A stretch of DNA of 36,588 nt from Patescibacteria group bacterium (lineage in GTDB: Bacteria > Patescibacteriota > Minisyncoccia > Phycocordibacterales > Phycocordibacteraceae). Location: NCBI GenBank assembly GCA_024653825.1, contig JANLHF010000016.1:1-36588 (forward strand). Direction: 5' to 3'. This document shows positions 8,145-28,892 of this stretch, one piece after another; position 1 is the first letter of the stretch, and every line of letters begins with the position of its first letter. A program made the translations under genes and the position numbers. The notes beneath the pieces were generated by a model. That model saw only the letters and a program-made list of their open reading frames with translations, was not told the DNA's origin and searched no databases.

Positions 8145-8546
8145 GGGGGTGACCGGCTTTGACGGTCTGTTCTTTGAAAGACGTGCGACGCAGTGCACGC
8201 CCGCAATCACTCAAAAGCGCGGGCACCCAAACTTGCCAAGAACACTCTTGCAAGCGTGAAGTCGCCGTACTTCGGTACGCATGACTTTGCGTTCGCGTTT
8301 GCGAAAGTCTAACGACTAACGCCGCGCGACGTTCATCTCCCCTTGGTTTCTACAGCAGAGGGGATGGGCGGAATTATCTGTAGAATCGATGTCCGGTCTC
8401 CCGCCCGGCACATTTAAATAAGGGATCGGGCAGGAATGGTTTCGTCTGCGTTCCTCGCATCCTGCCTTAAATATAACGCTGACTACGCGTCGTAGACTCT
8501 CTTTCATCGATAGATTCGGACCGGGGTTCAACTCCCCGCGCCTCCA
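8145..8546 (+). ncRNA. ssrA: tmRNA (ssrA)
   Basis: 5' GGGGGTGACCGGCTTTGACG and 3' GGACCGGGGTTCAACTCCCCGCGCCTCCA form the tRNA-like domain (GGGGGUG pairs with CGCCUCC). PK1-like gcccgc/gcgggc (ends 8224), candidate resume codon GCC at 8235, in-frame TAA at 8310. Confidence 0.93.
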
Positions 8547-8639
8547 CTCGACTCGCTTCGCTCGCTCGTGGCAAGCCACCTGTTAGCAGAAGCGCGCAAC
8601 ACCTCTACACGGGGCGTTTTGCGTTAAGCGAGTCGAGTG
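8545..8639. repeat. 14-bp perfect inverted repeat flanking the tmRNA 3' end
   Basis: cactcgactcgctt (8545-8558) and aagcgagtcgagtg (8626-8639). Confidence 0.8.
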
Positions 8640-24792: not shown

Positions 24793-24854
24793 AATGCCAT
24801 TGTACCGCACCCCTGCGAGGGTTTTGTAAATACCTACATGGGCTATGAGGGATA

Positions 24855-24880
24855 AAAAGAACGCCCCCGGAGGGGGCGTT
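24855..24880 (-). terminator. Intrinsic terminator of 24897-26051
   Basis: Minus strand AACGCCCCCTCCGGGGGCGTTCTTTTT. Confidence 0.9.
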
Positions 24881-24896
24881 GTAGCACAGTACTCGC

Positions 24897-26051
24897 TTAC
24901 TTCGCGAAACGGCGCTTTGCCGCTTTGATGCCCATCCAGATGAGCATGCCGAATCCCACAAACGGGAGCGCGATGATATACGCGAGTCCGATGAACGGAG
25001 CAATGAAGAAGAGTGCAATATCCTTGATGCGAGTCGCGGCTCTCTCCGACATTCCGCACCGGACCAGTTCCCGCACGCCCATATACGAAAGCGCGCCCAG
25101 CCCGACGAACGGGAAGGTGATGACGTAGACGAGTCCGATGAACGGCGCCGTGAAGAACATCAGGATGTTCTTCAGATACTCGCCAATCGTCGCCGGCTCG
25201 CTTACAGCCTTCGCCGACTCGACCTTTTTCTCCACAGTCGTTTCCATCCGGAGGACGGCCTTCTGGGCCCCCGCCCTTATCGTCCCGAGTGAGAATGCTT
25301 CTCCTTCGGGCCCACGAGTCGCTGCCTCGTCGACGCCAAGACCAAAGGCTCGTCTCATCTCGCGCCAGCCCATCCAGGCGAGTATACCGAGTCCGGCTAT
25401 GGGCAGAGTGGCAAGATATGCGAGCTCCAGCAGTGGGGCGAGAGAGAGGAATGCGACGTTCCGCAGGAACCAGGCAAGACTGCTTGGCATTCCGCGCTTC
25501 ACGAGACCTTCTTCGCCCATCGCGCCGAGCATATCAAGCCCTTCGAGCGGGAGCGTGATCGTGTGCGCCAGCCCGACGAACGGAGCTGCAAAATAGAGTC
25601 TCACGTTCCGCGGGAAGACGATGATCCTCTCCGGTATTCCTTCTGCCTTGGCTTCAAGAGCCTCGGGGGCCGGAGCAACAGACGCTTCGCCCTTCTCGAG
25701 AGCATCTTTGGTGCTTCGCTCGATGACGTCGGGAGAGAGCGGCTTGTCGAGGAAGTCGGAAACACCCGCCGCCTCCGCCTGCTTCCTATTATCGTCGGAG
25801 CCGTAGCCCGTGATGATAACGACCGGAAGCCAGGGCTGGCTCGCACGGATGCGCTGCGCCACTTCGATGCCGCTCATGCCGGGCATCTTGATGTCGGCGA
25901 ATACGACGTCGTACTTCTCGTTCTTGATCTTCTCTAGGGCATCTTCCCCATCGTGGGCGGTTATCACCGCATATCCCTTACCGGAGAGAACTCCGCTGAA
26001 ACTTCTGCCGATCACCGGATCGTCGTCAACGACGAGAACCTTCTTCTGCAT
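24897..26051 (-). CDS. Response-regulator receiver domain fused to four tandem membrane-hairpin repeats
   Basis: REC: 'KVLVVDDDPVIG', 'DVVFADIKMPGMSG', 'VVIITGYGS', 'FLDKPLS'. C-terminal half has four copies of ~38-aa 'hydrophobic-APFIGLxYxIxxPFxGxGxLxxMG'. SD AAGGAGA upstream of MQKKV. Confidence 0.9.
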   Translation of the reverse strand: MQKKVLVVDDDPVIGRSFSGVLSGKGYAVITAHDGEDALEKIKNEKYDVVFADIKMPGMSGIEVAQRIRASQPWLPVVIITGYGSDDNRKQAEAAGVSDFLDKPLSPDVIERSTKDALEKGEASVAPAPEALEAKAEGIPERIIVFPRNVRLYFAAPFVGLAHTITLPLEGLDMLGAMGEEGLVKRGMPSSLAWFLRNVAFLSLAPLLELAYLATLPIAGLGILAWMGWREMRRAFGLGVDEAATRGPEGEAFSLGTIRAGAQKAVLRMETTVEKKVESAKAVSEPATIGEYLKNILMFFTAPFIGLVYVITFPFVGLGALSYMGVRELVRCGMSERAATRIKDIALFFIAPFIGLAYIIALPFVGFGMLIWMGIKAAKRRFAK

Positions 26052-26145
26052 ACTCACAATTTTCTCCTTTCTCAAAATTACCAACGAGCTTGCTTCCGCC
26101 TATTATCATATCAAATATCCTGTCGCAAGATGTCACCCTATAGGC

Positions 26146-27024
26146 TTACATTTTATAGTATGCAAAGAGTGCGGTGACGCCAGCGAGATTCTTCTCCCAT
26201 TCAATCGCCTCATGCGTTGTGAGCTCAACGGTAATCGCCGGAACGCCGATGGAGGCAAGCCATCCCTCGGAATCGCCGTGGATGACATACGCATCAAAAA
26301 CCTTCACCGCCGTATACCCCGTCGCCTTTGCATAGACGTTCATAATCTCAAGCGTCTTCGGAAGGATGCCGTTGTTGCACTCCGAAGCGTACACGGAACC
26401 TGATTTACTGTGTAGAAATATCATTGCCTCCGGACTGTTGTCCAACACGAAATCCCGAATCGCTTTCGCCTCGGGCTCCGAGAAGGGCGCCGTGCCGGCA
26501 CTCGTCACCTTCCCGAGGAAGGTGCTCGTCGCCTGCCAGTTACAGTCAAAGTTGCGGTTAAGGTCCACTGTGTCTGCGTTATAGCGTCCGGGCACGAGGT
26601 TGGTGCCGGTCGGCACATCCGCGAGCGTAAAGCGTCCGGTGATGCCGAGTGCCTTGTACACGCCGTCAGGGTTCGCATCAGGGATGACCGTGACTGAGAG
26701 ATTCGCCGGAATGATTTCGGGATGCTCCTCCAGATAATCCATAAGGTCATATGCGAGGAGTACACTGTTCAACTCGTATCCGCCGTGTATACCGCCGACG
26801 AATCCGAGACGTGTCGTTCCCGTCCCATAGGTATACGCGTCGATGGTGCGACCCTGGACCGATGAGCCGATGACGACATGTCTCGCGGATGTATCGAGCG
26901 CTTTAACTACCTCTGAAATGACGGGAGAAGGACTTCGCAGGAGATACGCGACGAGCGCGATACTCCCGCATATCGCGATAACCACTAATGCGACGACCGC
27001 CCGTCTTCTATTTGAATCGCTCAT
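26146..27024 (-). CDS. M14-family zinc carboxypeptidase, membrane anchored
   Basis: N-terminal TM; 'FVGGIHGGYELNS', 'VIPDANPDG', 'DLNRNFDC', 'IFLHSKSG', 'ITVELTTHEAIEW'. Confidence 0.82.
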   Translation of the reverse strand: MSDSNRRRAVVALVVIAICGSIALVAYLLRSPSPVISEVVKALDTSARHVVIGSSVQGRTIDAYTYGTGTTRLGFVGGIHGGYELNSVLLAYDLMDYLEEHPEIIPANLSVTVIPDANPDGVYKALGITGRFTLADVPTGTNLVPGRYNADTVDLNRNFDCNWQATSTFLGKVTSAGTAPFSEPEAKAIRDFVLDNSPEAMIFLHSKSGSVYASECNNGILPKTLEIMNVYAKATGYTAVKVFDAYVIHGDSEGWLASIGVPAITVELTTHEAIEWEKNLAGVTALFAYYKM

Positions 27025-27064
27025 AGTTCGACAAACTCACTCTGGGTCACTGAGCGTAGTGGTC
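27025..27064. repeat. REP-like imperfect inverted repeat at the end of 27047-27949
   Basis: agttcgacaaactcactctgggtcactgagcgtagtggtcga: TCGAC/GTCGA ends plus internal CTCACT...CTGAG and CACT...AGTG. Confidence 0.45.
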
Positions 27065-27949
27065 GAGGATAGCTTGGATTCCCTTCTGGTTCTGGGTCCA
27101 TTCGGTATCAGTATGATTCGTGAGGAGGACGCTAATCGCGGGGACCTGCATCTTGGCGAGCCAGTTGACCATATCGCCAGGTATCGCATTGAAGTCATAA
27201 CTCGCGTTTGAGGTATAGCCGGCGGCCTTGGCGTAGAGATCGGTGAGCGTGAGCGTCTCGGGCAATACGCCATTATGACAACTTGAGGCGAACACACCGC
27301 CTGCGGCGGCATACCATGCGACAACCGCCTTCGGCTTATTGTTTCCAACATAACCCCTGATCGCTTGGCTCTCGGGTTCGGAGAATGCTCCCGTTCCTCC
27401 ACTTATCGTCTTACCCTGCCAGATCGAAGTCTTCTGCCAGCCGCAGTCAAAGTTCCGGTTAAGGTCCACTGTATTCGCGTTAAAGCGTCCGGCGATTTGT
27501 GCCTCGGTCGAGGGGGCAACGTCCGCTTTGGTGAAGCTTGCGGTCGTCGTGCCGACGACTGCGGTGAGTCCGTCCGGATTCAAAACTGGGATGACCGTCA
27601 CTTTCAAATTACTCGGAATAACATCCAGATTATTCTTGAAATACTCCATCGTCTTGTACGCGAGAAGCGCGGTGTTCCAGATATAACCACCCTGTATGTC
27701 GCCGACAAACAAGATCTCGTCAGTTCCGGTGCCGAAGTGGTATGCCGTGATGTCACGACCCTCTACTGATTTACCGATGATGGTTTCTGCACTGTTCATC
27801 ACGGTCGTCGTGCTTTGGTCATTGCCGAGCGTCTGAGTCGTATCTACTCCCGGCGTTACGGCCGTGTTTGGCGGAGAACTGCGGGTGAAGACGTACACGC
27901 TGAAGCCGATAATAACGATAACAAGTACGGCGATAATGGTATTTTTCAT
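27047..27949 (-). CDS. M14-family paralog predicted catalytically inactive, membrane anchored
   Basis: Aligns along its length with 26146-27024 ('VIPVLNPDG', 'NANTVDLNRNFDCGWQ', 'GAFSEPESQAIRGYV') but H/E, His and Glu positions replaced; start MKNTIIAVLV. Confidence 0.82.
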   Translation of the reverse strand: MKNTIIAVLVIVIIGFSVYVFTRSSPPNTAVTPGVDTTQTLGNDQSTTTVMNSAETIIGKSVEGRDITAYHFGTGTDEILFVGDIQGGYIWNTALLAYKTMEYFKNNLDVIPSNLKVTVIPVLNPDGLTAVVGTTTASFTKADVAPSTEAQIAGRFNANTVDLNRNFDCGWQKTSIWQGKTISGGTGAFSEPESQAIRGYVGNNKPKAVVAWYAAAGGVFASSCHNGVLPETLTLTDLYAKAAGYTSNASYDFNAIPGDMVNWLAKMQVPAISVLLTNHTDTEWTQNQKGIQAILDHYAQ

Positions 27950-27986
27950 AAGAGGTTCATTGTACCAAGAATCCCTTGCGTATGCG

Positions 27987-28892
27987 TCAATCGAAAATAT
28001 TGATGAGGTATGCGTCAATTGCCCGTTGGTCCATATCGTAGAACTGTAAGCCGTTGTTGTGGAGAGAGGTCGCGAGCTTCACTCCAACAAAACGCCAGTG
28101 CCACGGCTCGTAGACGTAATAAGCGTTGCCCTTCGGGTACGAAAGCACGAAGCCGTAGCGATAGGCGTTCGCAAGAAGCCAAGGATAGCTTGTCGTGCTG
28201 TCAAATCCGTCGAGGGTACCACCGATGCCGGTCGTGATGAGGTCAATAGTTGTGCCGAGTTGGTGTTCTGAATAGCCCTGGTCTGCAGAAAATGAGTTAG
28301 CGGTACCAGCGCCGTAGACGACCGTATATAAGGACTTCAGCGACTGTTGCTCGCCGAACGAACGGTATGCAGAACTGACGTAGAGGGTAATACCGTCTGC
28401 CTTTGCCGCGTTGATGAGTTTATTCAGAAATGGCCACGCCTCTATGATGATCTGCTCGGGTTTCGTTTCGGTGTAGAGATACTCCTTCGGTATGCTGACG
28501 AGACGCGCCGGCAAATAATTTTCGTTCAGGAAAGATACCTTGGAGTATTTTTTCAGAAGTTCGGGGTCTATCTGCGAGAGTTTCTGGAGCGAGCCAACCG
28601 CGCCGGAGATAGAACCGACCGTTTGTTCAACACCGCCGACTTTTGTATTCACTGCATCAATGTTTTGTTGCGCGCTAGAGAGCGTATTGGAGAGTCCGGC
28701 TGTCTGCGAGCGCAGGTCTGTGACATTTCGTGCAATATGGTCCGCGTTCTGCGAAAGCGCCGCAGTGGTAGATGCCAGCTCGGTCGTGAGAAGGCCGATA
28801 TCCTCTGAGAGCGCGGAAATCCGCACGAAGGCGTATATGAGAACCCCGCCGAGCAGGACAAATACGACCACTGCGGGAACTATGTTCGGCAC
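27987..28892 (-). CDS. M15 (VanY-type) D,D-carboxypeptidase with TM anchor and coiled-coil
   Basis: 'YVSSAYRSFGEQ', 'SADQGYSEHQLGTTIDL', 'YEPWHWRFVG'; heptad-rich region after the N-terminal TM. Confidence 0.92.
   Translation of the reverse strand: MPNIVPAVVVFVLLGGVLIYAFVRISALSEDIGLLTTELASTTAALSQNADHIARNVTDLRSQTAGLSNTLSSAQQNIDAVNTKVGGVEQTVGSISGAVGSLQKLSQIDPELLKKYSKVSFLNENYLPARLVSIPKEYLYTETKPEQIIIEAWPFLNKLINAAKADGITLYVSSAYRSFGEQQSLKSLYTVVYGAGTANSFSADQGYSEHQLGTTIDLITTGIGGTLDGFDSTTSYPWLLANAYRYGFVLSYPKGNAYYVYEPWHWRFVGVKLATSLHNNGLQFYDMDQRAIDAYLINIFD

Follow-up and report, generated by a model that had tools for sequence, protein, structure and literature searches.

A response regulator with a repeated, predicted membrane-inserting output in a Patescibacterium, and its relatives beside proteobacterial cytochrome genes

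We analyzed a 36,588-nt stretch (here the window; contig JANLHF010000016.1 of assembly GCA_024653825.1) from a Patescibacteria group bacterium, in which an intact 384-aa open reading frame (24897–26051 on the reverse strand, as are all features of the gene given below) codes for a receiver (REC) domain followed by four hydrophobic membrane units. The outputs of response regulators are mostly soluble. Judged from its sequence, this REC-unit protein is a genuine response regulator of an atypical kind, the output of which is a repeated, predicted membrane-inserting unit. The best-supported ancestral role of the family would be post-translational control of a cytochrome b/multiheme cytochrome c module.

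The REC domain, assigned by Pfam and alignment, occupies residues 1–121 (25689–26051). Residues 5–111 matched PF00072 at E=1.4e-29, with 102.9 bits against the curated cut-off of 30.2, and Foldseek matched REC structures at TM ~0.9. The acidic pair (D9 and D10), the phospho-acceptor Asp (D53), T81 and K103 were all in place in columns that are invariant in the family, confirming the intact REC domain proposed in a first-pass annotation of the same DNA. Neither the C-terminal part outside REC nor the unit itself had a significant match in Pfam, NCBIfam, PHROGs or the PDB, and Pfam recognized REC alone. The annotation had stated that the protein carries no DNA-binding or enzymatic output and had named a match of the repeat to a known characterized domain as a point against its proposal; these searches found neither. 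DUF1600, TrbC, CcmD and QcrA_N surfaced as weak sub-threshold matches of the unit and were set aside, and a fold search with the predicted structure of a unit pair against the PDB and BFVD returned nothing at E≤0.001.

Beyond a flexible linker (residues 122–146, 25614–25688; low pLDDT at 130–147), a family profile matched all four units at E=7e-22 to 3e-16. Unit 1 spans residues 147–184 (25500–25613; profile match 25494–25610, E=1.3e-17) and unit 2 residues 196–233 (25353–25466; match 25350–25466, E=2.7e-16), followed by a linker at residues 234–292 (25176–25352; low pLDDT at 246–253), unit 3 at residues 293–330 (25062–25175; match 25059–25175, E=1.8e-20) and unit 4 at residues 342–379 (24915–25028; match 24909–25028, E=7.4e-22). 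The layout is thus that of two standard 2-unit domains, each with a 21-aa loop, joined by the longer linker, and the repeat in the protein is therefore hierarchical. Pairwise, the four units shared 14–20 of 38 positions, whereas in 2000 shuffles the highest-scoring of the six pairs had 5.3 identities on average and 11 at most; this substantiated the four ~38-aa repeats seen earlier. Among 78 units from the window and its relatives, P10, L14 and P21 were invariant and G24 was kept in 76; all four window units carry P10, L14 and P21 and sit C-terminal to REC. The unit also has an internal 11-residue repeat (A-P-F-I-G-L-A-Y-x-x-A / L-P-F-V-G-L-G-M-L-A-W), reflected in a self-identity of 0.30 at shift 11 versus 0.06–0.17 at other shifts. 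The charge-free stretches of 31 residues within the units, together with the missing enzymatic or DNA-binding domain and a fusion kept in proteobacteria and phages, upheld the idea of a membrane output under REC control.

Units that crossed the membrane in succession would place the loop from unit 1 to unit 2 in the periplasm. This loop contains 23% K+R and 4% D+E, and loops and tails of unit proteins range over 23–27% K+R, while in proteins of the same operons the cytoplasmic flanks hold 20–32% K+R and the periplasmic flanks 12–14%. The REC tree implies no fewer than 9 changes in the number of units, which switches between odd and even. Because of these flank charges and changes in unit number, we lean toward monotopic or re-entrant units that would insert from the cytoplasmic face and return to it. 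A proline and positively charged flanking residues are reported determinants of re-entrant insertion (PMC6133551), and the window units have both, as a proline-containing hydrophobic segment with positive flanks. In the AlphaFold2 models, which have low pTM (0.42 and 0.39), a single unit instead forms an uninterrupted helix of ~45 residues, and two paired units make up a helical hairpin. The re-entrant insertion suggested in the first-pass annotation is thus favored by charge and unit number and not by the predicted models, and its hairpin for every repeat was an interpretation; the models draw a hairpin for the unit pair and not for the single unit.

The annotation had not recognized this architecture, and our literature searches found no description of REC joined to such membrane units either; the window protein is nevertheless not unique. 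A scan of 84,980 species genomes with two short peptide patterns found 41 further loci in Alpha-, Beta- and Gammaproteobacteria, one of them on a contaminant contig in a Patescibacterial bin (G016), and the use of two short patterns makes this number an undercount. The relatives carry REC with one, two or three units, and REC-less 2-unit paralogs also occur, some of which keep a visible REC vestige; the unit exists outside the REC fusion as well as in it, a point that the annotation had proposed to check. The family is rare: among 369 genomes sampled from the class to which the relative L004 belongs, L004's own was the one carrier, and among 380 sampled Patescibacteria the window gene was the one case.

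In the proteobacterial loci, the usual gene order is a single REC, the REC-unit gene, a cytochrome c with ~9 CxxCH motifs and a cytochrome b561 (PF01292), beyond which lie, convergently, genes for an NtrC-type regulator and a HAMP histidine kinase that has two CxxCH-like motifs in most loci. Cytochrome c was found in 26 of the 41 loci, cytochrome b561 in 23, the NtrC-type regulator in 22 and the kinase in 20; at other loci, the neighbors include genes of the HmcC/NrfD type or of the octaheme tetrathionate-reductase family. The REC-unit protein, the single REC and the NtrC-type regulator have in common S17, R20 and L22 (S-x-x-R-x-L, window protein numbering) on alpha1, the helix mainly responsible for kinase docking. 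S and R occur in every row of all three regulators (36 rows for relatives of the window protein, 16 and 10 for the other two), and L is missing from a single NtrC row. This shared docking motif suggests that one kinase may serve all three. The cluster of ~9-heme cytochrome c, cytochrome b561, NtrC-type regulator and CxxCH kinase is kept across Alpha-, Beta- and Gammaproteobacteria (among others in L009, L011, L021, L023, L025, L027–L031, L033, L040 and L042–L044) and looks like an uncharacterized electron-transfer module. At three loci (L010, L026 and L039), a receiver fused to a glycine-cleavage-H-like domain lies beside HmcC/NrfD-type and ferredoxin-type genes.

REC+2-unit genes also occur in IMG/VR contigs of 18–166 kb, where they form a single clade (support 100/100). 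One of these contigs (123 kb) carries portal, major head and tail sheath genes and another (166 kb) DnaB, primase, RNR and RIIA; the carriers are large, T4-like phages, which could serve as vehicles of REC-unit genes. Two terminase-bearing contigs (142 and 181 kb) code for REC-less 2-unit and 1-unit proteins, and other phage contigs gave weaker matches to unit mini-proteins of 57–61 aa. Among cultured phages (INPHARED), REC was matched alone, with no unit, and a search of plasmids for the REC-unit gene gave no match. On the 166-kb contig, two small multiheme cytochrome genes (L118:8812–10140; 4 and 7 CxxCH motifs, PF02085/PF14522) lie 3.5 kb downstream of the REC-unit gene and are possible phage-encoded multiheme cytochromes.

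The source genome (0.67 Mb, rated 100% complete) contains a single copy of the REC-unit gene. Its window neighbors, an exonuclease on one side and carboxypeptidases on the other, are 77–83% identical to genes of same-genus genomes (exonuclease up to 83%, carboxypeptidase 79%), and the REC-unit gene was missing from the corresponding places examined in those genomes. The window REC was 72% identical to that of a gammaproteobacterial metagenome-assembled genome (L005) and grouped on a long branch with L005 and L007 (85/81 and 88/94), with L004 nearby, inside a clade of 29 beta/gamma-proteobacterial and phage rows (96/97); a joint clade of window and phage sequences was neither favored nor rejected (p-AU 0.27). 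Relatives of the L005/L007 type carry two units, and the loop between them is as long as in the window protein, so the latter is most simply read as a laterally acquired 2-unit protein, the 2-unit domain of which would have been duplicated to give four. G+C of the gene is elevated, 0.59 vs 0.54. Absence of the fusion from all relatives had been named as a point against the first-pass proposal; the other sampled Patescibacteria do lack the fusion, and dozens of proteobacteria as well as phages have it. A malic enzyme common to the window and L005 is coincidental because it is native to the Patescibacterial genus. A second Patescibacterial copy, in G016, was rejected since its contig (C8; L003, same as L019) is proteobacterial, an example of such a contig placed in a Patescibacterial bin of public collections.

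The signaling repertoire of the source genome is small: PF02518 detected one histidine kinase (contig C25) and one other ATPase (C32), and PF00072 detected two receivers, the REC-unit protein and a single-REC protein. As the annotation had noted, no kinase lies near the gene, and the genome search that it proposed for an orphan kinase gave this one clear histidine kinase, on another contig. It is an ordinary kinase present in 50 of 56 same-genus genomes, so it was rejected as a partner acquired together with the REC-unit gene. The single-REC gene (L048, G000:C40) lies between genes for PilB- and PilT-like ATPases, a position that suggests a role in pilus control. No cytochrome b561 was found in the source genome, and the operon of cytochrome c, cytochrome b561, NtrC-type regulator and kinase does not surround the window gene.

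The REC-unit gene starts with ATG at 26051, with an in-frame GTG at 26057. The ribosome-binding site-like AAAGGAG upstream (26064–26070) and the GC-rich, intrinsic-terminator-like hairpin with a T run directly 3′ of the stop codon (24854–24880, AACGCCCCCTCCGGGGGCGTTCTTTTT) indicate that the gene is probably transcribed alone, without its neighbors. Elsewhere in the window, positions 26146–28892 hold two related tandem carboxypeptidase-like genes and a VanY-like gene, a trio kept in the same order in the same-genus genome G004 at 72–78% identity. A tmRNA at 8145–8547 was confirmed by Rfam at 92 bits; the tag peptide called by ARAGORN, AGTQTCQEHSCKREVAVLRYA, misses the usual hydrophobic end, and its frame may be misread.

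We favor, with a little less than even confidence, a membrane-localized, phosphorylation-switched regulator of a respiratory module that was re-used in the Patescibacterium. In proteobacteria, a membrane kinase, probably by way of covalently bound heme, would phosphorylate the NtrC-type regulator, the single REC and the REC-unit protein. Each unit would probably dip into the inner leaflet and keep its two flanks in the cytoplasm. Phosphorylation would alter how the membrane-held REC and its units interact with one another, the REC-less paralogs or the cytochrome b/c complex; the REC-unit protein would in this way adjust electron flow post-translationally, while NtrC would adjust transcription. 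The window gene would have come from a beta/gamma-proteobacterium, directly or via phage, with its 2-unit domain then duplicated; since cytochrome b561 is absent from the genome, its product would now work on its own as a receiver bound to the membrane, with the single kinase as its most plausible partner. Several observations weigh against this account. A place in the operon is no proof that the protein touches the cytochromes, most phage copies do not adjoin cytochrome genes, and the window copy is without a cytochrome operon partner. The AlphaFold2 helices are continuous instead of helix-break-helix, in models of low pTM. The family-invariant R20, kept in 36 of 36 relatives, is G in the window protein, and the ancestral kinase interaction may therefore be lost. 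The broader proposal is tentative, that a mobile 38-residue monotopic unit with two prolines 11 residues apart, acting as a phosphorylation-controlled receiver output and also alone, would tune respiratory cytochrome complexes post-translationally and was taken up by large phages and an ultra-small bacterium.

The motif shared by the three operon regulators, and the lack of any other output in the protein, would also fit a membrane-tethered phosphate sink, an established type of receiver in the literature, in which the units only anchor an output-less REC near the membrane kinase, where, by draining or buffering phosphoryl groups, it would make NtrC-type signaling sharper. We regard this as doubtful, given that REC-less paralogs retain the identical type of unit and that the invariant prolines and glycine and the changing unit number exceed the needs of a generic anchor. 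The phage genes raise the prospect of a host-takeover decoy of host kinases or membrane energy metabolism, with the Patescibacterial copy as a phage-delivered remnant: REC+2-unit genes occur on contigs that also carry portal, major head, tail sheath, RIIA, DnaB and RNR genes, REC-less units occur in terminase-bearing contigs, and stand-alone mini-proteins of about 44–61 aa exist. Most known copies, however, reside in cellular operons, the window copy groups with cellular rows and not with the phage clade, and no phage genes were recognized beside the window gene, which leaves this improbable. The phosphorylation-controlled membrane assembly of the first-pass annotation survived as a REC-controlled membrane output, but its oligomeric pore, curvature or scaffold former drew no specific support and is quite improbable; the multiple hydrophobic units, rich in small residues and proline, and the stand-alone forms would suit it, whereas a single unit suffices in many relatives, the unit pair resembles no solved fold, and the operon context indicates electron transfer. 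That an error of assembly or binning put a gene of proteobacterial origin onto the Patescibacterial contig is very improbable: the raised G+C and the contaminant G016 contig speak for it, but both flanking sides match same-genus genomes, gene, terminator and spacing are continuous, and the rarity of the fusion among Patescibacteria points to lateral acquisition.

Known systems resemble the REC-unit protein in parts. A single-domain regulator activates a phosphoglycosyl transferase, a membrane enzyme (PMC12802240); like the PF00072 single-domain regulators of membrane enzymes, the window REC has a full phosphorylation site and would act through protein contact and not DNA binding, but it is fused to a repeated hydrophobic unit without a family model. 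The archaeal output domain MetOD3 (PMC5847659), a parallel in layout, likewise pairs a receiver with a predicted membrane-anchored output. The PglC-type re-entrant helix (PMC6133551) is similar in its proline-containing hydrophobic segment and its positively charged flanks, whereas the window units have two invariant prolines 11 residues apart, occur in tandem, are joined to a regulatory and not an enzymatic partner (Pfam found REC only, and no phosphoglycosyl transferase domain) and are modeled without a break.

The family is coherent: its repeated membrane output is covered by no domain model, its genes lie next to those for cytochromes and a CxxCH kinase, and phages carry it. This suggests that two-component signaling, and phages too, may control electron-transfer complexes directly and quickly. 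The Patescibacterium has one kinase and two receivers, and the REC-unit protein there belongs to a very small signaling network.
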